A stretch of 64,000 nucleotides of DNA from a bacterium (lineage in GTDB: Bacteria; Zhuqueibacterota; Zhuqueibacteria; Residuimicrobiales; Krinioviventaceae), in the NCBI GenBank assembly GCA_029561455.1, contig JAKQIY010000041.1, positions 186,001-250,000 on the forward strand. The letters run 5' to 3'. Shown piece by piece: positions 30,129-51,987 of this stretch. The notes under the pieces are model-generated. The model worked only from the letters and a program-made list of their open reading frames with translations, did no database searches and had not been told where the DNA came from. Both the position numbers and the translations under genes were made by a program. How positions within the stretch are numbered: position 1 is the stretch's first letter; the number at the start of each line of letters is the position of its first letter.

Positions 30129-30149
30129 CCTGCAAGAGTGATAGCGACT

Positions 30150-33100
30150 ATGATAAAGGGTGTTATTTTGCATAAAATGAAAATGATTTATGTGGCGGCT
30201 TTGTTGTTGTTAGCTGCCGTTCCGGCATTTGCCCTGCCCCTCACCAACATTACGATTGTACCGGATGATGAAACCTATGGCGAGCAGGCGGTTTATTCCT
30301 TTACTTTTACATTAGCAACACCACTTCCTAGAGATGGTAAAATAGCTTTTACATTTCCATCACAGTTTAATTTGGTATATCTATCCCAAGTTAGTTCTAC
30401 CACTCCTCTATTTGGTGGATTTACCGATTCTCCCCGTATTGAAAACGACGGATTAGGTAACCAAGAAGTTAAAGTTGACAGGGATGGTAGCGGAGAGGAC
30501 AAGCCGGTAGGAACCATTATTAATATCCGATTAGGTATGATTACTAATCCACTTAGTCCCTCTGCTATTGATAATATTACAATTGAAACCCGTACAACTG
30601 GTGGAGTATCGCTGGATCAGGGTTCCGCCCATGTCGATCTCGATGGCCCCATTGTCAGCTTTACCCTGTCCAATCCGGCCGGTATTGTTGCCGGCACGCC
30701 GTTCAATTTGAGCGTCAGCAATGCGGTGGACGGCAACGGTGATCCGGCCAGCGGCGTGATCCGCGTTGCGGCCACCTCCGGCGGCGGCGAAGCCCCCAAC
30801 GGCCAGGATGCGGTTCTGCAGGATATTACTGTGACCAACGGTTCCGGCACGGCTTCGCAAACCATGTATAAAGCGGAAACCGGCGTGGTCCTCACCGGCA
30901 CGCTTTCCACCAATAGTTCTGTCACCGATGCAACCACGGCGTTTACGGTCAGTCCCGCCGCGTTGAATGAATTTACCTTGAGCAATGTGCCGGCCAGCAT
31001 AACCGCCGGTTCCACGTTTAACGCCGTGCAGGTTACGGCGCTGGATGATTATGAAAATATTGTAACCGGCTATAACGGCTCGGTTTGGTTCAGCACCACG
31101 GCCACCAGTTATACCTTGCCCAATTTGCAAAGCAGTCCCTATACCTTTGTTCCGGCCACCGACCAGGGCCGGCATACTTTTAACGGCTTTATTCTGCGCA
31201 CAGCCGGCAACCAGACGATCACCGTAACCAACGGCTCGCTGCCGACAACCTCCGGCGTCATCCAGGTGAATGCCGGGCCGCTGGCGTCCTATAATTTTAC
31301 CGCCAATCCCACACCCAACGTAACCGCCGGTGTTTCTGTGCGATTGACGGTGAGCAATGCTTTTGACGCCGCCGGTAATGCGCTGAGCGTGCCGATCAAT
31401 GTCTCCTTTGTGGATGGCGGGCTGCACGCTTCGCCAGGCGGACAAACCCCGGCGCTGTCACCGGTTATCAACCTGGTGAACGGCACGGGTTATACTGATG
31501 TCATATTATTTAACCGGGAAAATAACCTGCAAATTCAGGCCACCTACGGCTCGCTGGCCGCGCGGGTAGTTACTTTAAACGTGGCGCCCGGTAATCTCAG
31601 CCGTTTTACTATCAGCGGTTATCCGGCTACTACCGTAAGCGGCGCCGCTTTCACCAATCCGATTGTTGTTACCGCTATCGATGTGTTCGGTAATACCAAA
31701 ACCAATTACAGCGGCACCATGCGGTTCGGCTCCAGCGACGCCAATGCCAGCTATCCAACCACCCCGGCGCTGGTCAGCGGCACCGGCTCTTTTGCCGGCA
31801 GCGGCTTTACCCTGCGAACCATCGGCAACCAGCAATTAACGGTGCGCGACCTCGATACCGACATTATCAGCAGTTCGGATGCGATCCAGGTCACTGCGGG
31901 CGCATTAATAGATTTTATATTTTCCGTGTCACCGACGCCAAACGTAGTGGCCGGCGCTGCACTGCGCTTGACCATAACAAACGCCGTGGATGCCGGCGGC
32001 AACCCGATGAGCATCCCCATCAATCTGTCCTTTGTCGATGGCGGCGCGCACAGTTCTCCCAACGGCCAAACCCCGGTGCTGCCCCCGGTGTTGAACGTCA
32101 GCAACGGCACGGGCTATACGGATATTGTTTTATACAACAGTGAAAGCGTGCAAATCCGCGCTCAGAGCGGCGGTATTACGGAAACGCAAACCATCAATGT
32201 TGTTCCCGGCGTTATAGACCGGTTCGGCATTACCGGCTATCCTGCAACCACCATGAGCGGTTCTGTATTTCCGGCCCCGGTGGTGGTAACCGCCTATGAT
32301 GTGTATGGCAACCAAAAAACCAACTATACCGGCGCGGTGCGGTTTTCCGCCGCCGCCGATCCATTGGCGATTTTACCCGGAGATGCGTTGCTGCCGCTGG
32401 GTACACAAACTTTTAACGGCAACAGTTTTATATTAAATACCATCGGCAATCAGCAAATCACCGTAGCGGATTTGAGCGGCAGCGGTGTTACGACCTCGAC
32501 CAACTATATCCAGGTGCAGAATCCTGCCATTGAAATTACCGGAATCACGGCTTCACAACCGACAGTAACCATCAACCAGAGCACCTCGTGGACTATTCAG
32601 GTAGGTGTACGTAATTCAAGTGCATCGACCGTTACCCTGTCCTCAAACCAGGCAAACACTTACATAAAATTTATGCGCGGCGCCAACGATTACACCTCGC
32701 AATATACCATCAGTGACCCCACCGGCACATTTGTGGTAACCGCCGGAAATACCACTACCCTGACGTACACAATCACTCAAACCGGGTTTACACCCGGCGT
32801 GCTGGATATTTTTGCGCGGGTAGCCACCACTACCGGCGGGTATACCAATTCCATGGTGGATGAAGTGTATGGCGGCATCGAAGTGCAAAACCCTGAAAGT
32901 TTGCAAATAGTTTCCATTACTCCGTCCCAGTCCACAGTAACCTCAGGAGATAATACCCACCCCTGGCAAACAGTCGTGGCCGTAAAAAATAATGGCGGCA
33001 GCGCCGTGCAGCTCAACTTTAACACCAGTTCTCTGAACTCGGCAGCGATAACCAGCTATCAAAAACCTGCCGCTTTCCAGGATGGCTCCACCTCCCTGGC

Positions 33101-36100
33101 GGCAAATGAAACCAAGAATATTATTTATACGATAACCCAGAATGCGCCGACCACAGGGTTGTATAATATTACCGCCACCCTGGCTTATACGCTTACCAAT
33201 ACCGGCGAGAACAAATCCAACCCGGCTTCGGGCAGCGGGTCGGTGACGGTGCAAACCCCCTCGAACCTGGATATAACGAGCATTACCCTTTCGCAGCCCA
33301 GCGTTAACCGCAGCAGCGTTGCGCCATGGACGATTACCGTAGGCGTGCGCAACACCGGCGGCGCCAGCGTGGATCTGGATTTAAGCCAGGCCAATACCTG
33401 GGTGAGAATGTATAACGGCGCTACCTTGATCACCGGATTTACTCTGGTATCGCCGACAGAACTGGAAGATGCAGGGACAACCACTCTGGCCGGCGGTGTG
33501 GCCGATGCGCTGGTATTCCAGGTAACGCAAACAACTTCAAGTACCGGCACATTCAGTGTGCTGGCGCGGGTCAGCGGTACTGAACCCAACCGCGCCCTGG
33601 CGGTCTCCGACCAGACCGCGGCCGGCGACGGCATTTCCACCACCGTACAGGTACAATATGCCTCGGTAATTTCCTATGTACAGGAAAGTGTGCAGCCGAC
33701 CACCGTATTCCCCGGTAAAGCGGTGGAATTTGTGGTTACCGTTACCAATACCGGCGGCGCCACCCTGAACCTGAATACCACGCAAACGACGATCAGCTTT
33801 AATGACGCCTCCCAGGGCGGCACCAATAACTTTTCCGCAGCGCTCGATGCCGCTTATAATACCAGCATACCCACCGGCACAACCGAATTGCACTTTTTAA
33901 GCAAAAATGTCCCCAGCGCCTTTAAAACCGGCAGTTATGCGCCGCAAGTTACCCTTAACGGTTCGGAAAATGGCGAGAGTAAAGTACAGCAGCTCAACCT
34001 CAGCCCGGATGTCGTTAGGGTAGGCGCTCCAGGCGACCTGGCTATTAATGCCATTACTTCCAGCGCCACTACCGTATCCAAAGGCCAAACCAATCCCTGG
34101 TATGTGGATATCGATGTAACCAATCATGACGTCAGCACCATGCGGCTGCAAAGCGTAGCGCTGACCTTTAACTATAATACTCAGAACGTCACCAGTAAAT
34201 TTACGATCACTTATCCGAATATTTTTACCACCAGCGGCAACAATACCCTGGCCAGCGGCGCCAGCGACAGGCTGCGGGTAACAATAACCGGCGTAGCCAA
34301 TGACGCTCCCGGCGGCCTGGTGCTGATCTCGGCGGAAGTGAATACAGTGGATCAGAATGACACCCAGCGGACTTTTAGCGACCAGTTGTTCAACGCCGCC
34401 CAGGTGACCTGCCAAAGCCGTTCCGATGTACAAATTAATAATATTTACGCCAGCCAAACCACCGTCACCAGGGGACAAACGAGCCCTTGGTACGTTTATG
34501 TAAAAATGAAAAACAATGGCGAAAGCCGGGTCCGGCTGCGTTCCGGCAGCTATCTCTCTTTCAGCCGCGACAACTCTTATTTCACCGTAACCAGCCCAAC
34601 GGTATTTTTAGGCAGCAACAATGCGGAACTGGCCGGCGGCGCTACCGATAGTGTTCGTTTTACCATTACCCAGGTTAACCCCGCTATTGCCCTTGGTAAC
34701 TTTACCCTGGTCGGCACGATATTATACGAAGAAATCAATACCCTGGCCCAGCTTTCCAAGCAAAGTTCTTATATATCGGCCCGTATTCAGGAAAATGCCG
34801 CTATCCGGTTGGATGCTTTGCAAACCTCATTAAAATCCGGTTCCGCCGTCAATGTCAACCAGGAATTTTATATCAAAGCCCAGGTGACCAATCCGCGCGT
34901 CAACACCGGCGATATGGTAAAACAAGTGACCCTGAATTTTTCTTCAACTGCCGGGTTTACTTTCCCGAACGGGTCTACGCTGGTAATGAACAATATCGAT
35001 GCCGGGCAATCCCAGGTATCTGCAACCGGGATACTGGTGCGCGCTACCAATCTTGCCAATGTTCAGGATGTAATAACCGCCAATATCAGTGCGGCTGTAG
35101 CCCGCAACACCAACGCTTCCGCCGATGTTCTGTCACCGATTGATAATAATATTGAATTTACCACCCAGAATCCCGCTAACTTTGTGCTGGAGCGGGTAAT
35201 CGCCCAGGAAGACACCATTGTTTCCGGCACCCTGGCGCCGTGGACGATCAAAGTAGCGATTGCCAACACCGGTCAGGGCGCGCTGCTGCTCAAACGCCCG
35301 CAGGATAGCGATGTAACCATCAACCGCGAAGGATATATTATCAAAGCGCCAACGGTGTGGAGCGATTCGCTGCTGACCGGAGGCGAGCGCGACACCCTGG
35401 TGTACACTGTAACCAACACCCCATCGGCCAGCGGTATATTTACAATTACCGCCACCATTCAGGCCTCCGATTATAATGATGCCACCATCGAACCGGAAGC
35501 TAAAATCGGCCAGGCCCAGGTATTCTTTACGCAAACTTCAGCGGTTGGCATAACCATGACCTATATGGATCCGGCCTCGCCAAATGTCGATGCGGAAGGG
35601 ATCGGCCATGTTAATGTCGGTCAGCAGTTCCAGGTGCGGGTTAGAATTGAAAACAAAGCCGCACAGGCCCTCGATTCGGTGCGGGTGAAAATTAACGGCA
35701 CCGGCGCACTGGCTAGTGGTGAAATTGTCATTACCAATGTCGGCCTGGGTGAAGAAAAGGAAGGACTTTTCACTATTACGGCCGGCAATACCCAGAACCT
35801 GCTCGGCGAGACGTTGACCGCGGCTATTGTGCATGCCTGGGGCCAGGACGGCACACAGTCGAAAATAGCGCCGCCGCAGGATAATACCGTTGTTATCAAA
35901 GTCTATAATCCCGCCCGGCTGCAGATCATCAGCACCCGTAATCTGGGCGCTAATCCGGCCAAGCGGGTAAGCCAGGGACAGAATTTCCCAGTAGAAGTGC
36001 AGGTCTTTAATCCCGGCTCCGAAGCCGCCAAAGAATGCCGCGTTACCCTGGCCGCTTCCAATGTGCAGTTGGCTACGGTGCTGGAATCGCCGGTTACCAT

Positions 36101-39100
36101 ACCCGGAACGATTGCCGGCGGAGATACCGGTATTGCGCTGTTTAATGTTAAAGCCGGCAACAGTCCCGCTACCGGCCAGGTGAATTTGTATGCAGCGCTG
36201 CACGACGCCAAGGGAGTTAACAGCAATCAAACCCCGCAATTCCTGGCTGCAGGCGATAGCGACACCACTTTTGCCATACTGGAGCGGGGCGCGCAACTGG
36301 CCATTACCAGCGTGGACGCTGATGTGGAAAACAATGAAATCGTCGCCAATTATAGCCAGAACCCCTGGAACCTGAATATTGAGATCAGAAATAACGGCGA
36401 CGCCAGTGTAGAAATAATCAATCCATCGGCACAGGACATCAAAGTCAAAGTCGATGGTGTGCCGGACAATACCTATGATATTCGTCCCCCGGTCAAATTG
36501 AAACATTCAGGCGATTTGATTTTACGCGCCGGACAAACCGATACCCTGGCATATAGTATAGCCGAAAACGGCGAGATCGCCGGCAATGCGGTTTTTACTG
36601 CTCTTGTTCATGGCCGCGATATTAATATTGGCGCTGCCAGTTCAATTACAGTTACCGATTCAACCGAGGTTTATGTGATCTCGGAAGCGGTGGTACAGAT
36701 CGTGGAAACCACCATTAATAGTAATGCGCATGATGCGGAAGGCAAGGGCCTGGTCAATCGCGGCCAGCAGTTTACAGTTCAGGTTCTGGTACGAACCGGA
36801 CAACTACTGGGCGTGGATTCGGTGTATGTGGAACTGACCTCAAACGGCAATAGCATGACCGGCGCCCGCCAGGCATTCATTAAAAATATTAACCGCGACT
36901 CGGAAGTAACCGCATCCTTTACCATGACGGCCGATAGCAACTGGCCGGAAAGCCTGGGCGAAAAAGAAGAATTATTTTCAGCCAGAGTAGTGTCCGCCTT
37001 GTCGCAAAACAGCCAGTTACCGGCGCGTATCCGTCCTCCGGATAAGGAAGCAAACGCACGGGCGTATTTACGCATTCAAAAACCCGCCAGCATCAGTCTG
37101 GATTTGCAGTTTACCAATCCGCTGGACAGCGTAGTTACTCTGAACCAGGAAATCAATGTAGTTGCCGTGGTTACCAATAACGGCAAAGCCCAGACGGAAT
37201 TCGGCCTGGTCGAGTTAACGCCGCCGGATGGCTTCCAGGTAAAAACAACCGGTGGGTTATTTACTACCCAGCCGTTACAACAGCAATTTAACCTGGGCGA
37301 TGGCGAATTGTCGCGGAGTATCCCCTTTATTTTAAAGGCGCCGGCGGTCAATTCCTCACGAAAAAAGATCCGCGCTGCAATGGTGCAAATTCCGCTCGAT
37401 CGTAATTCGCAAACCCTGGCAGCGGTAACGCAACGGGCCGATTCGATCTATGCGCGCACTTCCAGTTCTTCGCTGACCATTTACAGTTTCGATATTCAGA
37501 AACCGCAGGGCGCCAAAGATTACACATTGTCCACCAATCAGGCGTTGACCCTGCAGGCGATCATAATCTCTACCCCCAACCTGCAAGACCGCAAAGTTAC
37601 CCTGCAGTTCCCGGATAATTTACCCGGCGATGTGGCTTATGTCCTGAATAATAGCCCCGCTGAGGTCGAGGTAACCGACAGTCCGGATACCATTACCTGG
37701 CAAATCAATGCTCCTTCAGAAAAATTTACCGGCGTACACAAGTTTTACCTGGAGGCCGGGGCCCTAGAAGCCGGAAAAGCCATCACTTCTGTGGATAGTG
37801 TGACGATTAACCAGGTTGTGGAACGGGCAAATATCGGAATAGAATTTTTTGAAGCCGTTAACGAAGCCGGGTCGATTAAATATGAACGGGAAGCCCATTT
37901 TTCCAAAGATCAGTCAAATATTACCTTGCGCGCCCGCATTAAAAACCAGGGTGAAGCCCAGATTACCGGAACAGGCAAAGTACGACTCGATCTTGATGAA
38001 AGCGGCCTCACCCTCACCTCGCAATATACAGGTTTACTGGAACAATCATTCAACCAGGAGACCCAGGATATTGTGTGGGTTGTCAATGCCGGTTCGTTGA
38101 GCAAAGATGGTAAAGAGATCACTGTAACCATTACCCAAACCCCGGTCGATGAAAATACCAATGAAGCGGCAAAAACGGTTGAGGACGCCGGCAAAGGCAG
38201 CATGAGAGTTTATATTTCCGACCAGGGCAAAGTTAGAGTATTAAATGATCAGGCGGAAATAACCTATCCCACCGGCGCCATAGATAATATTGTTTCGACC
38301 GAGCAGCAATTCACAGTCAAAGCGGTGATTAATTCGGAAAATGTTGACCCAAACCGCATCACCGCCTGGCTGGAAGCTCCCGATTATTTCCTGGTGACGC
38401 AAAGAATTCAAAGCGTGCCGCTGGGCTTTAACCGTGAAGTTACCTGGAATGTAACAGCGCCGTCGGAACCATCCCTGTTCTCCGATACGTTACTTGTCAA
38501 GGTATCCGGTTATGATATTAACTCCGGCCTAGCCGACACCCATCAATCCAAAATTTTACAGGTAACCACGCGGCAAAAGACCGCATATATTATAGAGCCC
38601 AAAATAACCTATCCGGACAGTTTCCAGGAGAGCGTCTCCACCAGCCAGGCTTTTTCACTCACCGGCACAATTTTACATACCGGCGCGCCCTATTTAAAGT
38701 CCGATAGCTTTATCGTTTCGATAAGCTCGCCGAAAGAGTTCACCCGCCTGGATAATAAACAGCAGGTCTATCGCTGGAGCCAATTCTCGGCAGGGCAGCA
38801 TCCCACCTGGCGGTTTACCGCGCCTTCTACAAAACCTGCCGGTATTGAATTTTCAAACTTTACCGTCAGTTTACTGGAAGTGCCGCGCGATGAAAATTCG
38901 TATCAGAAAGGCCAGGTTCGCGAAGATTCAGTTACCCACAAAATCTCGGTCGTCGACCGGGCGCTGGTAAAATTTGACGCTTATCTGCTGGGACAATTTG
39001 CCGCCGACACCGGCAGCGTACGGTTGGGCAGCGAATTTAACGTGGTGCTGAAACTCACCAATCTTGGTTTTGCCCGGTTTATTGATAATTACCAGATTAA

Positions 39101-40169
39101 AGTTCATTTACCGGCCAATTACACTTCTGCCGATTCGGTAAAACGCGGCACAATTACCGATGGCTTGGTCGATTCCCTGGTGTGGAAGATCAAAGCGCCC
39201 AAAACCTATAATTCCAGCCTGGATATTATCAGTTTTACATTGATCGATCCGCCGAATGATCAGTATGCCCATGCCGATGCGGCGGTGTACAACCAGCAGG
39301 TTACAGTAAAAATTCAACTGGAAACCGGTAAGTTGATCGTTGAAAACTATCCGGTTCGCAATAATAATGTGGTATTAAAAGGCGGCGTCAATGTGCCGGT
39401 CATGGGCCTGGTGTTCCGTAATAAAGATATTTCCAGTATCGCCAACAGCCACGTTACCAAAATGTTCTTTACCTTCAAGAACCGGGAAGGCGAGAGAATC
39501 GACCCGGCAACAGTGGTCGGCCGGATTACCGCGGTTAAACATTCCAATTACGCGACCATTTATGCATCCCGGAGCGCCGCAAATTTCGCTACGACCGATA
39601 AACCCGGGCAGATCATGCTTAATTTCAATGAAGCCGGCTCGCAACTGATAACTGTTCAAAACACGGAACGCGATACGGTTGATATCGTAGTCGATATTCT
39701 CAATATGGAAACTACAGATTTCAAGATAACCCTGTCCGACAGCTTGCCGGTCGTGGCGGTAGACGACAATAACCAATTGCTCGACCTGGCAAATGCCAAT
39801 GGCGACCCCATGAGCTATGTCGATATTGAATCGAGCCTGGCCGTGATTGTTGAAAAAGAAGCTGTCAAGTCATTTTATAATTATCCCAATCCGTTTGGCC
39901 GCAGCGACAAGCCGACCACGAGTTTTATTTATTATCTCGAAGCCGATTCCGACATTAAATTGCAAATCTTTACGCTGACCGGTGACCTGGTAAGGCAATG
40001 GGATTTCACCAAAACCGACCCGGAAGGCGCCGCCGGTTTGCACCAGGGTGAAATATCCTGGGATGGTCGCAACGGCAAGGAGCAGCTGGTGATGAACGGC
40101 GTGTATCTGGCGTATTTGTCAATTTCAGGCGGCAAAACGGCGACAACAAAAATAGCGGTTGTAAAATAA
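30150..40169 (+). CDS. Giant modular surface protein (about 3339 aa) with T9SS-like C-terminus
   Basis: An exported protein with signal peptide ending near VPAFA. ATG 30150 is chosen; GTG 30138 and ATG 30177 are alternatives. After the first domain (to about 165) come three related units of about 200 aa (about 170-795) with Ig/invasin-like motifs such as FSVSPTPNVVAGAALRL and VTAIDVFGNTKTNYSG. At least a dozen CARDB-like units follow, one every 120-130 aa, each opening with a hydrophobic strand and a TVTxGQxxPW-type motif (for example ASQTTVTRGQTSPWYV). Later Ig-like units lead to FYNYPNPFG (about 3242) and a FlgD/T9SS type A-like end (LKLQIFTLTGDLVRQW-like, GVYLAYLSI). No enzyme motif is seen. 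An adhesin or sheath protein is likely. The PorV-like gene follows after 15 bp. Confidence 0.85.
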   Translation: MIKGVILHKMKMIYVAALLLLAAVPAFALPLTNITIVPDDETYGEQAVYSFTFTLATPLPRDGKIAFTFPSQFNLVYLSQVSSTTPLFGGFTDSPRIENDGLGNQEVKVDRDGSGEDKPVGTIINIRLGMITNPLSPSAIDNITIETRTTGGVSLDQGSAHVDLDGPIVSFTLSNPAGIVAGTPFNLSVSNAVDGNGDPASGVIRVAATSGGGEAPNGQDAVLQDITVTNGSGTASQTMYKAETGVVLTGTLSTNSSVTDATTAFTVSPAALNEFTLSNVPASITAGSTFNAVQVTALDDYENIVTGYNGSVWFSTTATSYTLPNLQSSPYTFVPATDQGRHTFNGFILRTAGNQTITVTNGSLPTTSGVIQVNAGPLASYNFTANPTPNVTAGVSVRLTVSNAFDAAGNALSVPINVSFVDGGLHASPGGQTPALSPVINLVNGTGYTDVILFNRENNLQIQATYGSLAARVVTLNVAPGNLSRFTISGYPATTVSGAAFTNPIVVTAIDVFGNTKTNYSGTMRFGSSDANASYPTTPALVSGTGSFAGSGFTLRTIGNQQLTVRDLDTDIISSSDAIQVTAGALIDFIFSVSPTPNVVAGAALRLTITNAVDAGGNPMSIPINLSFVDGGAHSSPNGQTPVLPPVLNVSNGTGYTDIVLYNSESVQIRAQSGGITETQTINVVPGVIDRFGITGYPATTMSGSVFPAPVVVTAYDVYGNQKTNYTGAVRFSAAADPLAILPGDALLPLGTQTFNGNSFILNTIGNQQITVADLSGSGVTTSTNYIQVQNPAIEITGITASQPTVTINQSTSWTIQVGVRNSSASTVTLSSNQANTYIKFMRGANDYTSQYTISDPTGTFVVTAGNTTTLTYTITQTGFTPGVLDIFARVATTTGGYTNSMVDEVYGGIEVQNPESLQIVSITPSQSTVTSGDNTHPWQTVVAVKNNGGSAVQLNFNTSSLNSAAITSYQKPAAFQDGSTSLAANETKNIIYTITQNAPTTGLYNITATLAYTLTNTGENKSNPASGSGSVTVQTPSNLDITSITLSQPSVNRSSVAPWTITVGVRNTGGASVDLDLSQANTWVRMYNGATLITGFTLVSPTELEDAGTTTLAGGVADALVFQVTQTTSSTGTFSVLARVSGTEPNRALAVSDQTAAGDGISTTVQVQYASVISYVQESVQPTTVFPGKAVEFVVTVTNTGGATLNLNTTQTTISFNDASQGGTNNFSAALDAAYNTSIPTGTTELHFLSKNVPSAFKTGSYAPQVTLNGSENGESKVQQLNLSPDVVRVGAPGDLAINAITSSATTVSKGQTNPWYVDIDVTNHDVSTMRLQSVALTFNYNTQNVTSKFTITYPNIFTTSGNNTLASGASDRLRVTITGVANDAPGGLVLISAEVNTVDQNDTQRTFSDQLFNAAQVTCQSRSDVQINNIYASQTTVTRGQTSPWYVYVKMKNNGESRVRLRSGSYLSFSRDNSYFTVTSPTVFLGSNNAELAGGATDSVRFTITQVNPAIALGNFTLVGTILYEEINTLAQLSKQSSYISARIQENAAIRLDALQTSLKSGSAVNVNQEFYIKAQVTNPRVNTGDMVKQVTLNFSSTAGFTFPNGSTLVMNNIDAGQSQVSATGILVRATNLANVQDVITANISAAVARNTNASADVLSPIDNNIEFTTQNPANFVLERVIAQEDTIVSGTLAPWTIKVAIANTGQGALLLKRPQDSDVTINREGYIIKAPTVWSDSLLTGGERDTLVYTVTNTPSASGIFTITATIQASDYNDATIEPEAKIGQAQVFFTQTSAVGITMTYMDPASPNVDAEGIGHVNVGQQFQVRVRIENKAAQALDSVRVKINGTGALASGEIVITNVGLGEEKEGLFTITAGNTQNLLGETLTAAIVHAWGQDGTQSKIAPPQDNTVVIKVYNPARLQIISTRNLGANPAKRVSQGQNFPVEVQVFNPGSEAAKECRVTLAASNVQLATVLESPVTIPGTIAGGDTGIALFNVKAGNSPATGQVNLYAALHDAKGVNSNQTPQFLAAGDSDTTFAILERGAQLAITSVDADVENNEIVANYSQNPWNLNIEIRNNGDASVEIINPSAQDIKVKVDGVPDNTYDIRPPVKLKHSGDLILRAGQTDTLAYSIAENGEIAGNAVFTALVHGRDINIGAASSITVTDSTEVYVISEAVVQIVETTINSNAHDAEGKGLVNRGQQFTVQVLVRTGQLLGVDSVYVELTSNGNSMTGARQAFIKNINRDSEVTASFTMTADSNWPESLGEKEELFSARVVSALSQNSQLPARIRPPDKEANARAYLRIQKPASISLDLQFTNPLDSVVTLNQEINVVAVVTNNGKAQTEFGLVELTPPDGFQVKTTGGLFTTQPLQQQFNLGDGELSRSIPFILKAPAVNSSRKKIRAAMVQIPLDRNSQTLAAVTQRADSIYARTSSSSLTIYSFDIQKPQGAKDYTLSTNQALTLQAIIISTPNLQDRKVTLQFPDNLPGDVAYVLNNSPAEVEVTDSPDTITWQINAPSEKFTGVHKFYLEAGALEAGKAITSVDSVTINQVVERANIGIEFFEAVNEAGSIKYEREAHFSKDQSNITLRARIKNQGEAQITGTGKVRLDLDESGLTLTSQYTGLLEQSFNQETQDIVWVVNAGSLSKDGKEITVTITQTPVDENTNEAAKTVEDAGKGSMRVYISDQGKVRVLNDQAEITYPTGAIDNIVSTEQQFTVKAVINSENVDPNRITAWLEAPDYFLVTQRIQSVPLGFNREVTWNVTAPSEPSLFSDTLLVKVSGYDINSGLADTHQSKILQVTTRQKTAYIIEPKITYPDSFQESVSTSQAFSLTGTILHTGAPYLKSDSFIVSISSPKEFTRLDNKQQVYRWSQFSAGQHPTWRFTAPSTKPAGIEFSNFTVSLLEVPRDENSYQKGQVREDSVTHKISVVDRALVKFDAYLLGQFAADTGSVRLGSEFNVVLKLTNLGFARFIDNYQIKVHLPANYTSADSVKRGTITDGLVDSLVWKIKAPKTYNSSLDIISFTLIDPPNDQYAHADAAVYNQQVTVKIQLETGKLIVENYPVRNNNVVLKGGVNVPVMGLVFRNKDISSIANSHVTKMFFTFKNREGERIDPATVVGRITAVKHSNYATIYASRSAANFATTDKPGQIMLNFNEAGSQLITVQNTERDTVDIVVDILNMETTDFKITLSDSLPVVAVDDNNQLLDLANANGDPMSYVDIESSLAVIVEKEAVKSFYNYPNPFGRSDKPTTSFIYYLEADSDIKLQIFTLTGDLVRQWDFTKTDPEGAAGLHQGEISWDGRNGKEQLVMNGVYLAYLSISGGKTATTKIAVVK
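30658..32530 (+). repeat. Three tandem units of about 200 codons inside the giant gene
   Basis: Units start near 30658, 31296 and 31920. The last two are closest at protein level: NPTPNVTAG/SPTPNVVAG, SFVDGGLHASPGGQTP/SFVDGGAHSSPNGQTP, NGTGYTDV/NGTGYTDI, ISGYPATTVSG/ITGYPATTMSG. The first is more divergent. This is a product of internal duplication. Confidence 0.75.
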
Positions 40170-40184
40170 CAGGTAATATGGATT

Positions 40185-42215
40185 ATGTGCAGAATTAAAA
40201 TAGAGAGTAAGGCTGTGAATAGATCAATTCAAATACCGGTATTAACATTTTTCATACTCGCACTGCTTTGTCTGGCGGGAAATGCCCCGGCCCAGCAAGA
40301 AAACAATGATGGATACGGAGGTATAACGGATATTTTTGATTTTCCGGTCGGAGCGCGGGCTATGGCGCTGGGCGGCGCTTATGTTTCCGTAGTCGATGAT
40401 CCGTATGCCCTGTACTGGAATCCGGCGGCTTTGGAAAATGTCGAACGGATCGGCATTGGCATTTACCATACCAACCTGCCTTCGTTAACGAATTATGATT
40501 ATTTTTCGTTCCTGTATCCCAGTCTCACCTTTGGCACCATATCCGCCGGAATTTTGCGAATAGGCACGAGTGATATACATAATGTAGATGATATCGGATC
40601 GATCACCGGCGAAACCAATTTCAGCAAAACATTATTCATGTTCGGTTACGGATTCCGGCCGCGGCCGTGGTTCTATATGGGAACCAATTTTAAAATTGAA
40701 CGCACCAGCCTGCCTAACTATGAAAACGCCGGCAACCTCACCGAATCGGCGCTGGGCGCCGACCTGGGTATTTTAATTAAACCCTCCAGTCAAAGCGGGT
40801 TTTTTCATGGTTTTGCCATCGGTATGAATATTCAAAACTTTTTACAACGTTCGCAGCGGGCTTTTACAGTTCAGGATAAAACCCCGCGCAATTATTTGTT
40901 TGGCCTGTCGAAAACATTTGGCAACGACCTAGGTAACAATCATTTCCTTTTCGCCTATCAAATGGATATTAACCAGGAAAACGAAACCGTACCCAATTAT
41001 TATCATTTTGGTTTTGAATACGATTTTAAAAAGACATTGTTTTTGAGAACAGGATATGATTATCGCGGTGAGCAGGGCGATGGGGATAACGGAAAAATGA
41101 CCTACGGTATGGGTGTGGGAATGTTTGGCGTGCAGCTCGATTATTCCTACTGGACGCCGCGTTACGACGCCCTCAGCGGCAGCCACCGCATTTCCCTGGT
41201 TTATAATATCGGCAAAACCCGCAAGGAAAGAATGGATCAACTGCAGGCAGCCGAACTGGAACGCATCAATGAACAGGTGAGACAGCAGCAGCTCTATGAA
41301 CGGCGGGAAACCATTATTAAAGGCCAGGAACAGGCGCAACTGTTTTATGATAACGGCGATTACCCCCGCGCTTATACGGCTATCAACCGCGTGCTGGCCC
41401 TGGACGAGACCGGCAGAGATACGGAATTTACCAAAGCCCGAAGTTTGTTAAATGATATAAATACTGCTATTGAAAAACAACGTGAAGCTGAATTAGATAA
41501 AAAGATCAGCCGTACCCAGGAAGAAGCTGAATTAAAACGTAAAGAACAGCTTATCCGCGAGCATTATGATAAAGCCATGGCTTATTTTGAAACCGAGGAT
41601 TATACGGATGCTATGCGTGAATGCGACCAGGCTTTACAAATTGATCCCAACAGCGCTTTGATCCTCGACCTGCGTAAAACAGTAGATGAGGACCTGCGCA
41701 AAAAGATCAGTACGCTGGTAATCCGCGCCAGATCTTTGGAAACCAGCGGCCGGCAATATGAATCCATACAATTATACAACCAGGCGCGCCAGCTGGCCAA
41801 AGGCAATGAACAATTTCAGGGTATGATCTCCGGTCAGCTCAATAAACTGGAACGCAACCTGAACCGGGATGAAACCATACGCAGCGCGGTTATATATGAA
41901 AATGATCAGAACTGGGCCAAAGCCGCCGAATTATACAAAGAAGCGCTGAAATTCGATCCGAAAAATGAATCGTTACAGCAAAAATATAATGATATGTTCG
42001 CCCGCGCCAATGCCACTTCGGGCATGTTAACCGGCAAGGCAAAAGAATTGTATTCTCTTGGTTATAAAGCGTTTAATAACGGTGATTACGACGAGGCATT
42101 GAGATATTACGAACAGGCACGTGAATTGCAACCTTTGAACAAAACCTTGCTCCGCGCTATTGATGTGGCTAAGGAACGAAAACAAGCCAGACAATCGGCG
42201 GGTTCGGGCAAATAG
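40185..42215 (+). CDS. PorV/PorQ-like outer-membrane protein fused to TPR domain
   Basis: A protein of about 676 aa (ATG 40185; GTG 40215 would give a cleaner signal peptide). The mature N-terminal half (about residues 45-340) is a PorV-like beta-barrel: FDFPVGARAMALGGAYVSV, YALYWNPAALENV, and repeated amphipathic strands ending HRISLVYNIG. PorV shuttles type IX cargo across the outer membrane. From about 345 on come charged coiled coil and TPRs (GDYPRAYTAINRVLALD, EDYTDAMRECDQALQIDP, QNWAKAAELYKEALKFDP, GDYDEALRYYEQARELQP). A barrel of this family normally ends without such a tail. It sits between the giant protein and the membrane phosphatase in one operon. Confidence 0.82.
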   Translation: MCRIKIESKAVNRSIQIPVLTFFILALLCLAGNAPAQQENNDGYGGITDIFDFPVGARAMALGGAYVSVVDDPYALYWNPAALENVERIGIGIYHTNLPSLTNYDYFSFLYPSLTFGTISAGILRIGTSDIHNVDDIGSITGETNFSKTLFMFGYGFRPRPWFYMGTNFKIERTSLPNYENAGNLTESALGADLGILIKPSSQSGFFHGFAIGMNIQNFLQRSQRAFTVQDKTPRNYLFGLSKTFGNDLGNNHFLFAYQMDINQENETVPNYYHFGFEYDFKKTLFLRTGYDYRGEQGDGDNGKMTYGMGVGMFGVQLDYSYWTPRYDALSGSHRISLVYNIGKTRKERMDQLQAAELERINEQVRQQQLYERRETIIKGQEQAQLFYDNGDYPRAYTAINRVLALDETGRDTEFTKARSLLNDINTAIEKQREAELDKKISRTQEEAELKRKEQLIREHYDKAMAYFETEDYTDAMRECDQALQIDPNSALILDLRKTVDEDLRKKISTLVIRARSLETSGRQYESIQLYNQARQLAKGNEQFQGMISGQLNKLERNLNRDETIRSAVIYENDQNWAKAAELYKEALKFDPKNESLQQKYNDMFARANATSGMLTGKAKELYSLGYKAFNNGDYDEALRYYEQARELQPLNKTLLRAIDVAKERKQARQSAGSGK

Positions 42216-42228
42216 AAAAGGACGAGCT

Positions 42229-45200
42229 TTGTTTAAAAGCGCTATAAAAGAACAGTTGCAGGTTCCTGCTGATGTCGATCACCTTGGGCATCTGCGGGAC
42301 TTTGTTACCCGGATAGGGAAAAAGCATGGTTTTTCGGAACGCAGCGTTAATGCTTTCAAATTATCCATTGATGAAGCTGCAACCAATATAATCAAACATG
42401 CCTACCGGGATTGGGATGGCGATATTATCATTCGCGCCCTGGTTCGCAAGAACAGCCTGACCTTTATTCTGATCGATAAAGGCAAGTATTTTGATCCCCG
42501 CCAGGTTAAAGACCCGGATTTGAAAAAGTATGTCGATATAGGTAAAAAGGGGGGGTTGGGCATTTTTATGATGCGTCGCCTGCTGGATCGCATCGATTAC
42601 CGTAAAACCGAAGTCGGTAATGAATTATGGCTGACCAAAAACCGCGAAGAAAAGAAACGGGGAAAAATATCCGTAGCCGCAATACCCATCGGCATGAAGG
42701 CCCGTTACTGGCTGATCAGCATGGCCTTTTTTACAGCGCTGATGGTAATGACTTTTATGTACTTTTTTTTAAAACAAGATGATAAAGTTTTATCGGAATA
42801 TATTGAGAACGGCAAAAGGGCTTGTTCCGTTCTGGCCAATGATATTGCTAAAAATTTAACGGATACGAATGATATTAATGATGAAGTATTGAATGAGTTG
42901 ATCACAAACGGCAGCCAGGACCTGGTGGTTTTAAATAAAGCCAACACTTCCGTCAATACGCTATTAAAATCTGAACATAGCGATATTTTATTTAATGCTC
43001 TTGTTATAGATAATATACAGAATATTTTGGCCATTGCGTACGAAGATTCGTTTTACCGGGTGCTGGGAAATTATGAAGTGCCCGGCAAAAAAAAGAAAAT
43101 TCAGGAAAATGTTTACCAGTATCGCCTCAAATCCGGCGCCGGTGTTATCGACGTCGAATGGCCGGTGCAGGATGACAGCGGCAGAACCCTGTGTACCAGC
43201 CATTTTTTAATGGATTATAACAAGATCAGTAAAGATACGACCGCCGCCCGTAGTAATTATTTACGGTTATTGCTACTGATCTGGATACTGGTAGCCGCCA
43301 GTTTGTTCCTGCTTATTTACCTGCTGATGAACCCGTTCCGGCGTTTGCAGGAATGGGTCAAGGACCTGGGCCAGCCGGGGATTGCGGAAGAACTGGATAT
43401 CGACACGTCAACCGAAGTGGGAGAAATAGCCAAGGCATTCAGCGATATTACCATGAAACTGCGCGATTCCCAGGCTAACCAGGTGGAGCAGGAGCGTTTG
43501 CAAAAAGAAATGCAGGTGGCCCAGGAGATTCAACAAACCCTGTTGCCCGCCAATGTCCCCGAAGTGGAAGGCTATGAAATTGCCTCATATTATGCCGCCG
43601 CCAAAGAAGTGGGCGGCGATTATTTTGATTTTGTCGAAGTCGATAGCGATACCCTGGGCATTGTTGTTGCCGATGTATCCGGCAAGGGAGTGCCGGGCTC
43701 CCTGGTAATGACCATGATCCGCACGGCACTGCGCACCGAAGCGCGAGGCATCAAAGACGCCGCCGAAGTGCTGACCCGTGTCAATGACTTTGTTGTTAAC
43801 GATATGAAAAAGGGAATGTTTGTAACCCTCTTTTATGTAATTATCGATTCTAAAAAGCGGCGGATCAATTTTGCCAGCGCCGGTCACAACCCGATGATCT
43901 TGTACCGACCCAGTCAGCAAAAGACCTATTATTTGAATCCGCGCGGGTTTCCTATTGGCATCTCGCTGCCGGAGAAGGATTTATTCAAGCGTTCTCTGCA
44001 ATCGGACACCCTGGCATTAGCAGAAGATGATATATTACTGGTCTATACCGACGGCATTACCGAAGCTATGAATGCCCGGCGGGAAATGTTCGGCGAAGAG
44101 CGGTTTTTAAATGTCATTCGGGATTCCGGCACATTAAAGGCTGAAGAATTTATTGAAAAGCTACAAAAAGAAATCAATTCTTTTACCGAAGGCAGTCCGC
44201 AAAATGATGACATCACCCTGGTCGCGATCAAGGAACAAACCTCGGTTGAAAAAATTGAGTTGAAACGGGCAAAGAATGTTTTTAACCATATCCAGCAGGG
44301 TATGCCGCTTAAAGAGGCCTGTAAACTGGAGAGAATTTCAACTTATTCTTATTATCATAAATATAAAGAAAAGTTTGAAAAAGAAGGCCTGGAGAGCTAT
44401 GTTATCGAACAGCCGTCCGAAGATCTGGAATTCAAACATCTCAGTATTGAGGAGAAAGCCAAAATATTTGATGTAATCCGGCGTTTTCCGGATTATGGTG
44501 CCAAACGCATCAGTGAAGAATTAAACACAGAACATTATAATTTTACGGTCATATCTCCCGCCCGAATTTATGATGAACTGGTCAATTCCCGGTTGAATAC
44601 CAAAAAACTCAGGGATGCTTTTGTATTACGTGGAACCAGGAAAAAACGCTTAAAAACCCCCGGCACTCCGCTGCTGACTATTGACGGTCAGGTCATTGTT
44701 GATAAACAACACTATATAGAATCAACTCCCGAGCCGAAAGCAGAGAAACCTGCGGAGCCGGCGCCAATAAATGAACAAATAGCCGAAACCCAACCTGTCA
44801 AAAAATCTTTACGTTTTCGGGTTAAAAAACAGGAAAAAGAAGCGCCGCCGGAAATTCAGGAACCGGCATTTGCAGCAGAAGAACTTGACGAGCAAGAAAT
44901 TCCTTCAAGTGTCCGTTCGCTGGTTACTCATGAGGAACAGGACAAGGTAGTAGACACCCTGGCGTTAATGGAAGAAACACCAGAAGCCCCGGTTACAAAG
45001 ACTCCGCAAATAGAAACGCCGGGACCGCAATCCAGCGAAGCGGCAGGAATATATGACCTGGAAGCGGTTATAGACGCCGATGCGTTTACCGATTTATTGT
45101 TTAATGAAGATAAGGTACTGCAAACCGGTTTGAGTCCGATTGCAGATACCGTTACGGAAATTGATACCCCGGAATTTAATGTACTAGACCAAATAGCAGA

Positions 45201-46605
45201 ACCACAGGTAGTGGAACCGGACAGTGAATACCCGAAAGCGATGAATGAACAGGAAGAACCGGAACTACAAACACTCAGCGAAAAAGCGGTTAGTGCAGCT
45301 CCGGAAGATACCCTGCAAGATCTTTCTTCCGCTGTGGCAATTGAGGATATCCCTGCCGAAAAGGAAGAAGAATTTATAGATTATTTAGAACTGGATTTCT
45401 CCCATAAAGAACCATTGAAAATGGAACACTATTCTCAGCCCGCCGAAACGATAAGTGACCGGGAAGAACCGATTGTTCCTGCTGCCGAACCGTATATAAA
45501 GGAAGACGACGATCTGTTTGCTTTTGATGAGCTTACTTTTGCCGGAACCGAAGAAAAAATCGAGCTTCCTGATGAACCGGCTCCAATCCAGGCGGTTATA
45601 CAAAAAGATGATATAAAAACAGATTTTTCTGTTTTCGAAGAAATTGAAGAACCTGCTCAAAGTGAAACTCTGGCTGAACAAGAGGCCATTGACGATTCTA
45701 TTGACGACATGGACCTGGTTGGTACAAAAACCAAATTCCGCCTCATCGAAGAGGAAGAAATCGAACTTGCTGATATTATGAATACCAGCGGGGATATGAT
45801 TCAGATATCCGAAGCGGATGCCAAAATGGCTTTTAGCGATGAAGATATTGAAGATATTAATGTAATTTCCGAAACCGGTTTGTACGAGTCTCCTGCCAAT
45901 AACCCGGAACCGTTTACCGAGTTTGTCAGCCTGGATCAGGTCGGCAAAGAACCGGTCAATCGCATTTCCGGTTCCAAGGGGGAAGCAAAACCCTTAGAAC
46001 TGGTCAATGAACAATTTGATTTTTCAATTCCGTTTGATGATATCTGGGAAATCAAGGAAGTACATACCGGACAAACAATAACCGATACGTTAGAATTTCT
46101 GGATCAGGACAAGTTATCGTTTGAAGAATTGATCGATATGGTTGGTGGACAAAAACGGGAATCGGATAACCGGCAGCCGGCGCCCAAAGGACAAAGCGCA
46201 TCACTTCCCAAACCTGACATCAATCAACAAAAAGAAACCTTGTTACGGGACAAGTTAATTACCCGTGCAGTCAAACTCTATAGCAAAGAAAATTATAATG
46301 AAGCAATCAAGATATTCTGTAATTTACTGGCAGCATATCCGAATGATGTTTCTATACATGGCTATTTGGGAAATGCTTATTTCCGTAACAAAAATTATCC
46401 CCAGGCAATCATAGAATACGAAACAGTTTTAAAACTGGACTCTTCCAATCCTCAGGCCTGTGAAAACCTTGGCGTTGTTTACGCAAATCAGGGAAATTTA
46501 AGTAAAGCTATAGAGCAATGGGAAAAATTGCTATCATTAACACCAGATCGCGAAGATATAAATAAAAGTATTAAAAGAGCTAAAAAGTATCTTGTTAAAA
46601 GTTAG
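42229..46605 (+). CDS. Membrane partner-switch protein: RsbW-like kinase, RsbU-like phosphatase, winged helix and TPR
   Basis: 1458 aa from TTG 42229, with AAAGGA upstream and 13 bp after the PorV stop. Order: GHKL/RsbW ATPase (about 1-140: SIDEAATNIIKHAY, LIDKGKYFDP, GKKGGLGIFMMRRL), TM1 (about 158), an extracytoplasmic sensor region, TM2 (about 347), a HAMP-like stretch, coiled coil, then a SpoIIE/PP2C phosphatase (about 415-670: KEVGGDYFDF, VADVSGKGVPGSLVM, SAGHNPMILY, QNDDITLVAI). A winged-helix region like transposase-type HTHs follows (about 675-810: LKEACKLERISTYSYYHKYK, LSIEEKAKIFDVIRRFPDYG). Then come about 500 acidic, Pro/Glu-rich disordered residues and C-terminal TPRs (about 1337-1450). 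Likely it phosphorylates and dephosphorylates a STAS partner in response to an envelope signal. Confidence 0.85.
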   Translation: MFKSAIKEQLQVPADVDHLGHLRDFVTRIGKKHGFSERSVNAFKLSIDEAATNIIKHAYRDWDGDIIIRALVRKNSLTFILIDKGKYFDPRQVKDPDLKKYVDIGKKGGLGIFMMRRLLDRIDYRKTEVGNELWLTKNREEKKRGKISVAAIPIGMKARYWLISMAFFTALMVMTFMYFFLKQDDKVLSEYIENGKRACSVLANDIAKNLTDTNDINDEVLNELITNGSQDLVVLNKANTSVNTLLKSEHSDILFNALVIDNIQNILAIAYEDSFYRVLGNYEVPGKKKKIQENVYQYRLKSGAGVIDVEWPVQDDSGRTLCTSHFLMDYNKISKDTTAARSNYLRLLLLIWILVAASLFLLIYLLMNPFRRLQEWVKDLGQPGIAEELDIDTSTEVGEIAKAFSDITMKLRDSQANQVEQERLQKEMQVAQEIQQTLLPANVPEVEGYEIASYYAAAKEVGGDYFDFVEVDSDTLGIVVADVSGKGVPGSLVMTMIRTALRTEARGIKDAAEVLTRVNDFVVNDMKKGMFVTLFYVIIDSKKRRINFASAGHNPMILYRPSQQKTYYLNPRGFPIGISLPEKDLFKRSLQSDTLALAEDDILLVYTDGITEAMNARREMFGEERFLNVIRDSGTLKAEEFIEKLQKEINSFTEGSPQNDDITLVAIKEQTSVEKIELKRAKNVFNHIQQGMPLKEACKLERISTYSYYHKYKEKFEKEGLESYVIEQPSEDLEFKHLSIEEKAKIFDVIRRFPDYGAKRISEELNTEHYNFTVISPARIYDELVNSRLNTKKLRDAFVLRGTRKKRLKTPGTPLLTIDGQVIVDKQHYIESTPEPKAEKPAEPAPINEQIAETQPVKKSLRFRVKKQEKEAPPEIQEPAFAAEELDEQEIPSSVRSLVTHEEQDKVVDTLALMEETPEAPVTKTPQIETPGPQSSEAAGIYDLEAVIDADAFTDLLFNEDKVLQTGLSPIADTVTEIDTPEFNVLDQIAEPQVVEPDSEYPKAMNEQEEPELQTLSEKAVSAAPEDTLQDLSSAVAIEDIPAEKEEEFIDYLELDFSHKEPLKMEHYSQPAETISDREEPIVPAAEPYIKEDDDLFAFDELTFAGTEEKIELPDEPAPIQAVIQKDDIKTDFSVFEEIEEPAQSETLAEQEAIDDSIDDMDLVGTKTKFRLIEEEEIELADIMNTSGDMIQISEADAKMAFSDEDIEDINVISETGLYESPANNPEPFTEFVSLDQVGKEPVNRISGSKGEAKPLELVNEQFDFSIPFDDIWEIKEVHTGQTITDTLEFLDQDKLSFEELIDMVGGQKRESDNRQPAPKGQSASLPKPDINQQKETLLRDKLITRAVKLYSKENYNEAIKIFCNLLAAYPNDVSIHGYLGNAYFRNKNYPQAIIEYETVLKLDSSNPQACENLGVVYANQGNLSKAIEQWEKLLSLTPDREDINKSIKRAKKYLVKS

Positions 46606-46861: not shown

Positions 46862-47533
46862 ATGGAAGGTATTCACTTGTCAGTAGAAAAAGCAGGTTCC
46901 CAGGACAGTATTTCAATTATCAAGGTAGGCGGTTATATTGATACCACTACATCTTCCGAGTTGGAGCAAGCTTTAAATAATTTGATCAAGGCAGGTTCCT
47001 GTTTATTGATAATAGATCTGGGAAACGTTGATTATGTCAGTAGCGCCGGATGGGGTATTTTTATCAGTGAAATAAAAGGAATCCGTGAAAAAGGCGGCGA
47101 TCTAAAGCTGGTCAACATGGTACCTGAAGTTTATGAGGTTTTTGAATTACTTGAATTCCATCATATTTTAAAAGCATTTGATACGGTCGAGCAGGCAATT
47201 GCCGATTTTGAAAGACCCGGTTCCGGGAAACATCTTGAACCTAAAAAAGAAATCAAAATACAAAAACCCAAAGAAACCCCCAGAGTGGAACCGGTTGTAA
47301 AAGAAGAATCACAAAAAACCGTTCACGCTGCAAATTTATCAATTGATGAAAAAATCAAAAAAATAATTGCTGCCGATCCGGATATATCTTCAATTCAAAT
47401 TGTAAAATTACTCAACACCCCGGAATATGGATATGTAAAAATTGGCTGGTTTGGTCTGCGCCGCTCTTTGAAACGTCTGGATCTGGACAATAAAAAGAAG
47501 CGTAAATGGCATTCAATTACCTATAATGGTTAA
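46862..47533 (+). CDS. STAS anti-anti-sigma-like protein with C-terminal winged-helix module
   Basis: A 223-aa cytosolic protein. Residues 1-115 form a STAS domain: IIKVGGYIDTTTSSELEQAL, then LIIDLGNVDYVSSAGWGIF, with the phosphorylatable Ser expected at 60 or 61. It is the usual substrate of RsbW-type kinases and RsbU-type phosphatases. A charged linker (about 116-155) leads to a C-terminal domain: LSIDEKIKKIIAADPDISSI, then IVKLLNTPEYGYVKIG and LKRLDLDNKKKRKW. This resembles the winged helix in the upstream kinase-phosphatase (LSIEEK ... PDYGAKRISEELNTEHYNF). It is probably the partner of that protein. The output target is not visible; no sigma factor is encoded nearby. Confidence 0.85.
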   Translation: MEGIHLSVEKAGSQDSISIIKVGGYIDTTTSSELEQALNNLIKAGSCLLIIDLGNVDYVSSAGWGIFISEIKGIREKGGDLKLVNMVPEVYEVFELLEFHHILKAFDTVEQAIADFERPGSGKHLEPKKEIKIQKPKETPRVEPVVKEESQKTVHAANLSIDEKIKKIIAADPDISSIQIVKLLNTPEYGYVKIGWFGLRRSLKRLDLDNKKKRKWHSITYNG

Positions 47534-47613: not shown

Positions 47614-48597
47614 ATGTTTATAGATTATGCAAAAATATATGTCAAGGCCGGAGATGGAGGAGATGGTTGCATAGCTTTCCGGCGGGAGAAATATGTGCCC
47701 AAGGGCGGGCCTAGCGGCGGCGATGGCGGCTATGGCGGCAATATTGTAATTACCGCCAGCAAACATATTCATACCCTGCTGGATTTCCGCTATAACCATG
47801 AATACAAGGCCGAACGCGGTCAGCATGGGATGGGATCCAACATGACCGGCAAAACCGGTAGTGATTGCATCGTCAAAGTTCCGGTTGGCACATTGATTAT
47901 CGATGCCGATAGCGGCGAACCGCTTGCCGATATGGTGGATGATCAGCAATCCGTTATTATCGCAGCAGGCGGCAAGGGAGGGCGCGGCAATACCCATTTT
48001 AAAAGCGCCACGAATCAGGCGCCCCGGATATGCGAGGAAGGGGTTAAAGGCGAGGAAAAAAATCTGGTCCTTGAATTGAAACTGATTGCGGATGTCGGTT
48101 TGGTGGGTATGCCTAACGCTGGGAAATCTACCCTGCTTTCCCGGATTTCAGCAGCGCGTCCCAAAATTGCCGATTATCCGTTCACTACATTAAAACCGCA
48201 GCTTGGCATTGTCAAGGTACGGGAACAGCAAAGTTTTGTCGCTGCCGATATACCGGGTTTGATCGAGGGCGCACATTTAGGCAAAGGACTAGGTACACAG
48301 TTCTTACGGCATATAGAACGTACCAAACTGTTGCTGATAATGCTGGATGCCTGTTCCGAAAACCTGTTAGCCGATTATCACACCCTTATTAATGAACTCG
48401 ACTCTTATGGCAATGGACTGGAATCAAAACCCCGTATAATTGTTTATACAAAAAGTGATTTGTTGACCAATGGTTTTAAAGGCTTGAGTAAAAGGACAAT
48501 CAAAAATACCAGAACATTATTGATTTCAGCGATCACCGGCGAGAACCTGGCCGAATTAAAGCAGCTTCTCTGGGAAGAATTACACAACACAACATAA
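47614..48597 (+). CDS. obgE: GTPase Obg/CgtA
   Basis: A conserved ribosome-associated GTPase for large-subunit assembly. The 327-aa protein has the Gly-rich Obg fold (GDGGDGCIAFRREKYVPKGG, SGGDGGYGGN, GGKGGRGNTHF). The G domain carries GMPNAGKSTLLS (G1), the G2 FTTLKPQLG, DIPGLIEGAHLGKGLG (G3) and YTKSDLL (G4). It lacks the extra C-terminal OCT domain. dprA starts 17 bp after its stop. Confidence 0.95.
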   Translation: MFIDYAKIYVKAGDGGDGCIAFRREKYVPKGGPSGGDGGYGGNIVITASKHIHTLLDFRYNHEYKAERGQHGMGSNMTGKTGSDCIVKVPVGTLIIDADSGEPLADMVDDQQSVIIAAGGKGGRGNTHFKSATNQAPRICEEGVKGEEKNLVLELKLIADVGLVGMPNAGKSTLLSRISAARPKIADYPFTTLKPQLGIVKVREQQSFVAADIPGLIEGAHLGKGLGTQFLRHIERTKLLLIMLDACSENLLADYHTLINELDSYGNGLESKPRIIVYTKSDLLTNGFKGLSKRTIKNTRTLLISAITGENLAELKQLLWEELHNTT

Positions 48598-49800: not shown

Positions 49801-49887
49801 GGAGGGCTAGTCCTAACTGGTAAGGCAGCGGTCTTGAAAACCGCCGCGCTCACGCGCATGGGAGTTCGAGTCTCCCGCCCTCCGCCA
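49801..49887 (+). tRNA. tRNA-Ser (UGA)
   Basis: Acceptor stem GGAGGGC/GCCCTCC, anticodon loop CTTGAAA giving UGA, long class II variable arm (CGCGCTCACGCGC region), T arm GGGAG-TTCGAGT-CTCCC, discriminator G, and an encoded CCA at 49885-49887. Confidence 0.95.
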
Positions 49888-49907
49888 GCATAAAGCAAGA
49901 CTAACCC

Positions 49908-49996
49908 GGAGAGATGCCAGAGTGGCTGAATGGGGCGGCCTGCTAAGCCGTTGTAGAAGGTTACTTCTACCCAGGGTTCGAATCCCTGTCTCTCCG
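49908..49996 (+). tRNA. tRNA-Ser (GCU)
   Basis: Acceptor GGAGAGA/TCTCTCC, anticodon loop CTGCTAA giving GCU, long variable arm (TGTAGAAGGTTACTTCTAC region), T arm CAGGG-TTCGAAT-CCCTG and discriminator G. Unlike its neighbour no CCA is encoded (CT follows), so CCA must be added by nucleotidyltransferase. Confidence 0.95.
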
Positions 49997-50011
49997 CTCA
50001 ATTTATAGTAG

Positions 50012-51916: not shown

Positions 51917-51987
51917 TGGGGTGTCGTCCAGCGGCAGGACACGTGACTCTGGATCATGGAACCGGGGTTCAAATCCCTGCACCCCAG
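51917..51987 (+). tRNA. tRNA-Gln (CUG)
   Basis: Acceptor TGGGGTG/CACCCCA, D arm GTCCAGCGGCAGGAC, anticodon loop CTCTGGA giving CUG, T arm CGGGG-TTCAAAT-CCCTG (one wobble), discriminator G; CCA is not encoded. It lies 10 bp after gltX, so may be co-transcribed with it. Confidence 0.93.

Follow-up and report, generated by a model that had tools for sequence, protein, structure and literature searches.

The 64,000-nucleotide stretch analysed here (the window; positions 186,001 to 250,000 of contig JAKQIY010000041.1) belongs to a bacterium of the phylum Zhuqueibacterota and encodes, at 42229..46605 on the forward strand, a transmembrane protein of 1458 amino acids in which an RsbW-like serine kinase and a SpoIIE/PP2C phosphatase are joined. 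We consider it likely that this enzyme is a membrane-sensing bifunctional switch which sets the phosphorylation of two effectors of surface structures, both composed of a STAS domain and a winged helix. This view draws on invariant active sites beside a diverged sensor, on a STAS gene that almost always follows the enzyme gene, on a winged helix found in only three proteins of the genome, and on the recurrent position of the second STAS gene in an exopolysaccharide (EPS) operon.

The open reading frame (ORF) of the enzyme is unbroken from a TTG start at 42229, from which residues are numbered throughout, to the stop codon ending at 46605. A longer reading of 1481 amino acids is available, and the orthologues begin at the first residue of the 1458-residue form. 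The order along the chain is kinase, transmembrane (TM) helix, periplasmic Cache/PAS-like sensor, second TM helix, HAMP-like region, phosphatase, tandem helix-turn-helix (HTH) domains, acidic linker and C-terminal tetratricopeptide repeats (TPRs). A Pfam scan placed HATPase_c_2 at residues 12-137, SpoIIE at residues 473-668 and TPRs at the C-terminus, and together with the unbroken frame this confirmed the fusion of both enzymes that a preliminary description of the window had reported. Orthologues of the kinase-to-HTH core were present in 76 of the 82 genomes of the phylum, including the genome analysed here, some of them split across contig ends; the six genomes lacking one (G012, G021, G039, G056, G076 and G079) are all fragmented metagenome assemblies. 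The named related records fall mainly into candidate division KSB1, with Calditrichaeota/Caldithrix among them. That a frameshift or an assembly join had fused separate genes is practically inconceivable, because the same continuous architecture recurs in 53 orthologues from many assemblies, and this candidate explanation was rejected. The enzyme is confirmed as a real, conserved protein that is near-universal in its phylum. Besides that, a contig labelled CSSED10-310 (locus L041, JAFGJC010000291.1) contains an orthologue that shares 73% identity with the window protein across residues of about 320-827, which reflects either mis-binning or transfer.

The kinase domain (42262..42639, +) matches HATPase_c_2 with an E-value of 6.2e-25, in agreement with the N-terminal GHKL kinase described earlier, and aligns with the RsbW structure 6m36 (E 4.6e-13). 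It shows the ATP-binding motifs of the RsbW/SpoIIAB fold, namely an N-box with E49 and N53, the DxG motif D83xG85 and a GxG motif within GGLG at 108-111. All conservation counts derive from an alignment of 53 orthologues, in which E49, N53, D83, G85, G108, G109 and G111 are invariant (53/53). The expected SpoIIE phosphatase was likewise recovered with high significance (43645..44232, +; Pfam 6.4e-52), with homology extending from near 43500. When aligned to SiaA-PP2C and Rv1364c, it retains the metal-binding aspartates: D464 (43618) lies just ahead of the Pfam envelope, D482, D608 and D660/D661 lie within it, and all five residues are unchanged in 53/53 orthologues. Loss of ATP- or metal-binding residues across the homologues had been named as a possible refutation; for the orthologues it was checked and rejected at the tested positions. 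Judged by these invariant residues, both enzymes look active. At the level of named subfamilies, the scores remain below the NCBIfam equivalog cut-offs, with 70.9 vs 145 bits for RsbW and 66.8 vs 700 bits for SiaA, the best NCBIfam match of the phosphatase. A group of longer enzyme paralogues of about 1840-1990 amino acids (L080:7203-13175, L084:3759-9269 and L085:1058-6778) stands without PorV or STAS neighbours; in some of these the glycines of the ATP lid are changed, to V or M at 108 and to D at 109, and a G462S exchange occurs in two.

Between the two enzymes lies the predicted sensory part. The two TM helices with a sensor between them, as first proposed, are backed by hydrophobic stretches (42706..42768 and 43258..43326, both +) and by an AlphaFold2 (AF2) model of residues 148-380 with a pLDDT of 84.6, in which two long TM helices flank a sheet of the PAS/Cache type. 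The modelled sensor (42769..43257, +) has a Cache/PAS-like fold; among solved structures it comes closest to the WalK ectodomain (5is1; Z 11.8, rmsd 2.8 over 129 aligned residues), CitA and DcuS. The domain evolves fast, with only 13-27% identity between the orthologues and the window protein. Invariant active sites next to such a diverged sensor form the pattern that would be expected of selected enzyme activities combined with a host-adapted sensor. The adjoining juxtamembrane region (43312..43461, +) resembles the HAMP regions of sensor kinases, so that the HAMP-like stretch suggested earlier has a PF00672 match (E 0.005), but one below the cut-off (17.6 vs 25 bits). It continues into a conserved helical linker that leads to the phosphatase (43462..43548, +; QERLQKEMQVAQEIQQTLLP), with a mean identity of 0.90 over residues 421-440. 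A linker of this helical class has been shown to control RsbU, and the same has been proposed for phosphatases linked to HAMP (PMC12143880). The preliminary description had placed the opposing activities on opposite sides of a membrane sensor; this holds along the sequence but not across the membrane, as kinase and phosphatase are both predicted to be cytoplasmic.

Next to the sensor enzyme, the gene order is fixed: a giant surface protein, a PorV-like barrel, the enzyme and then a STAS protein. The giant repeat protein of 3343 amino acids (30138..40169, +) ends in a type A sorting tail of the type IX secretion system (T9SS), recognized marginally in its last 100 residues (TIGR04183, 23.5 bits against a cut-off of 23); at least 150 such tails occur in the same genome. 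According to neighbour clustering, homologues of this protein take the same place in 38 loci, and an outer-membrane barrel of the PorV/PorQ family with C-terminal TPRs (40185..42215, +; NF033709 1.2e-38) lies upstream in every orthologue that has upstream sequence. A profile search located the STAS gene (46862..47533, +) directly downstream in 48 of the 49 orthologues with enough flanking sequence. The exception (L049) is a second copy in its own genome, and the long paralogues mentioned above also lack a STAS neighbour. The STAS domain covers residues 14-112 (Pfam 1.7e-20), passes the anti-sigma factor antagonist model TIGR00377 (65.5 vs 53.45 bits) and shows the conserved phospho-site motif DYxSSAGWG; after a linker of variable length, a winged helix follows at about residues 158-223. 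We propose this STAS-winged-helix protein as the substrate and effector of the enzyme. Because both enzymes look active and flank the sensor, and because a STAS candidate adjoins, the self-contained bidirectional switch put forward in the preliminary description is still the best reading of the sequence. A literature search on PorV with SpoIIE/STAS and on KSB1 with T9SS, with most subscription papers outside its scope, retrieved no description of an enzyme-STAS-PorV system.

Further downstream, an obg-like GTPase gene (47614-48597) and a dprA-like gene (48615-49712) follow the STAS gene and recur in 22 and 24 loci, respectively. In Bacillus, Obg is connected with the activation of sigma-B, and its link with the STAS locus may deserve a look or may be due to chance. 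The Rfam scan of the window returned tRNAs only, with three genes at 49801-49884, 49908-49996 and 51917-51987; two of these overlap a minus-strand ORF (49813-50100) that is unlikely to be a gene.

The phosphatase is followed by two HTH domains, the first at 44242..44409 and the second, a winged helix, at 44440..44637 (both +). An hhalign comparison matched the second HTH with the C-terminal domain of the adjacent STAS protein (Prob 98.3, E 1.8e-14; the maximum among 20 column-shuffled controls was Prob 2), which identifies the two domains as homologous. The DNA-binding-like domain, previously regarded as an oddity on a membrane protein, thus is no isolated feature, as its second half has a relative in the presumed partner. 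The earlier assignment as a transposase-type winged helix held in part: an NCBIfam model of IS481 transposases spans both HTHs (2.2e-6), but Pfam HTH_32 and HTH_23 remained under their cut-offs. The similarity to the N-terminal HTH pair of IS481/IS3 transposases is confined to this part (profile positions 6-112 of 284); no catalytic integrase-type domain was matched, and here the HTHs are joined to a signalling enzyme. Searching the own genome with a combined alignment detected the winged helix in three proteins only, the enzyme, the adjacent STAS protein and a second STAS protein. Across the 82 genomes of the phylum, three copies were counted in 54, four in 14, five in 3, two in 8, one in 2 and none in 1.

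The second STAS-winged-helix protein (locus L149, G000:C80:78000-94000; 7659-8384, -) keeps the SSAGWG motif. Its gene is flanked by those of a glycogen synthase and a Wza-like export protein; next come the genes of a Wzc-like tyrosine autokinase/chain-length protein, of an epimerase and of a sugar transferase of the WbaP/WcaJ type. In 17 of 18 loci, the synthase and the Wza-like and Wzc-like proteins are again encoded nearby. The restriction of the winged helix to the enzyme and two STAS proteins would suit a homotypic docking, in which the common domain brings the STAS substrates to the enzyme and confers specificity. Moreover, wherever an enzyme with the winged helix has a STAS gene nearby, the STAS protein carries the domain too, both in the orthologues of the own phylum and in 10/10 loci of a second phylum.

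In this second phylum (that of G090), a homologue of the kinase-sensor-phosphatase core was detected in 55 of 60 sampled genomes, and the 52 loci read comprise 49 with PorV and 41 with STAS within 3.5 kb. The operon occurs there with or without the HTH on the enzyme: among the loci with STAS, the winged helix is found on both proteins in 10, on STAS only in 18, on neither in 13 and on the enzyme only in 0. The 18 loci in which STAS keeps the winged helix without an enzyme copy suggest that the domain has its own target, and they make an obligatory docking of the homotypic kind a disfavoured reading. Placed on the tree, the co-occurrence of the domain amounts to only one or two independent enzyme/STAS pairs, and we regard docking, also in its weaker form, as doubtful. 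The core operon is either older than both phyla or has moved between them. In four families (f42, f48, f54 and f55; L175-L183) the gap between enzyme and STAS is nearly constant at about 750-776 bp and probably holds an extra gene or a conserved region.

The same 18 loci suggest that the winged helix has work of its own, and one refinement of the bifunctional switch, fully compatible with it, takes this to be the binding of nucleic acids. Here the STAS-winged-helix proteins would bind DNA or RNA directly, phosphorylation would toggle this binding without a sigma factor, and the enzyme HTH would bind the same target or hold it at the membrane. The tandem HTH resembles the DNA-binding pairs of transposases and PAX-type proteins (IS481 2e-6; weakly Pax5 1k78 by fold, Z 6.4, rmsd 9.0, 111 residues), and basic tails occur, such as the one behind the enzyme HTHs (44650..44694, +), whose last letters KTPGTPLLTIDG fall into near-invariant alignment columns. 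In addition, no sigma-factor family stood out among the neighbours that recur in the analysed loci. However, the fold matches are weak and within the range common by chance. Sequence searches against solved structures with the enzyme HTH gave no significant credible match, and Foldseek with the HTH model (pLDDT 71.5) gave none below E 0.27. The winged helix is also absent from STAS in 13 loci, HTHs of the transposase type can come to serve in contacts between proteins, and no binding site was identified, with no motif search for a winged-helix operator made. We therefore see a nucleic-acid output as quite conceivable, at somewhat less than an even chance. A more specific version, in which the sensor kinase/phosphatase toggles nucleic-acid-binding STAS regulators via the common winged helix and so couples the envelope state directly to the surface-protein and EPS operons, independently of sigma factors, is put forward only tentatively.

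What is known of partner switches comes mostly from sigma factors in a handful of model bacteria, and a canonical version would have the N-terminal kinase sequester a sigma factor that STAS sets free. The RsbW-like kinase domain would fit this role, and three sigma-70 proteins of the own genome match the SigBFG model over its full length, all under the cut-off. On the other side, the kinase scores well below the RsbW equivalog cut-off and is held at the membrane, and the recurrent neighbours include no noticed sigma-factor family, which by itself excludes nothing. Altogether, we consider the canonical arrangement unlikely.

Returning to the bifunctional switch, the Cache/PAS-like domain would sense a ligand, a nutrient cue or the envelope state. 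From there, the second TM helix, the HAMP-like region and the helical linker would relay the signal to the phosphatase in the cytosol, and the first TM helix might relay it to the N-terminal kinase. The kinase would then phosphorylate, and the phosphatase dephosphorylate, the same conserved serine of the adjacent STAS-winged-helix protein; the second such protein, of the EPS operon, is probably also a substrate. Their phosphorylation state would determine binding partners and thereby adjust surface functions, with the two effectors reporting to two surface programmes, the operon of the T9SS-tailed protein and PorV and the EPS operon. Several points weigh against this model. Gene order by itself does not establish the surface protein or EPS as the output, the main role of the kinase domain could be that of a binding (anti-sigma) domain, and 11 of the 52 loci of the second phylum have no STAS gene within 3.5 kb. 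Cross-talk is possible as well, since the genome encodes other strong HATPase_c_2 proteins as well as nine more SpoIIE and seven more STAS domains, the second winged-helix STAS included. In a separate partner-switch locus of the same genome (G000:C51:75000-86000), five SpoIIE proteins cluster with a STAS protein and a small protein of the HATPase_c_2 type. As for the rest of the enzyme, the preliminary description of about 500 acidic residues followed by TPRs agrees with the measured linker of 515 residues (44692..46236, +; 25% D+E, 8% K+R), which is presumably disordered and spans 221-531 residues among the orthologues, and with the conserved C-terminal TPRs (46237..46602, +; Pfam TPR_2 5.8e-16). 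Both probably serve protein interaction and tethering.

As a putative partner switch that carries its two opposing enzymes on a single membrane sensor, the system is near-universal in a phylum that has been little studied and also common in another one, typically beside envelope genes. What makes it interesting is the conserved envelope operon, together with the domain common to the enzyme and its putative substrates. The winged helix, kept or lost by lineage, offers a natural experiment on how PP2C phosphatases choose their STAS substrates (PMC11418112) and on the targets of STAS proteins, such as SypA, for which a sigma factor is not evident (PMC8256260).

The preliminary description had held that kinase and PP2C phosphatase are normally kept in separate proteins, which overstated the novelty of the fusion: it is not unprecedented, as SypE, HsbR/CrsR and Rv1364c already combine both. 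HsbR of P. aeruginosa and CrsR of S. oneidensis unite PP2C and an RsbW-like kinase acting on a STAS antagonist, but they are response regulators and not membrane sensors, and the REC-PP2C-kinase order of HsbR differs from that of the enzyme (PMC6482189). Rv1364c fuses PP2C, kinase and STAS functions in the order PAS-PP2C-kinase-STAS, whereas here STAS is a separate gene with a winged helix (PMC9138534). In the SiaA/SiaB/SiaC system, a membrane-linked PP2C is likewise balanced by a kinase on one antagonist-type protein; however, the kinase SiaB is a separate protein and the output is the diguanylate cyclase SiaD (PMC7647112). By analogy, the closest working precedent is SypE of Vibrio fischeri, a kinase-REC-PP2C protein. 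Its N-terminal kinase promotes the phosphorylation of SypA, a STAS protein encoded in the syp polysaccharide locus, and in this way inhibits biofilms, acting not on syp transcription but at another level (PMC3610818). Both systems share an N-terminal serine kinase, a central sensory part, a C-terminal PP2C phosphatase and, as target (here a candidate), a STAS protein tied to polysaccharide production. They differ in the central domain, which is REC in SypE and a TM Cache-type sensor here (the Pfam scan of the enzyme contained no REC), and in the tandem HTH, acidic linker and TPRs, which are no part of the domain plan described for SypE; SypA, in turn, consists of STAS only, in contrast to the STAS-winged-helix protein encoded next to the enzyme.

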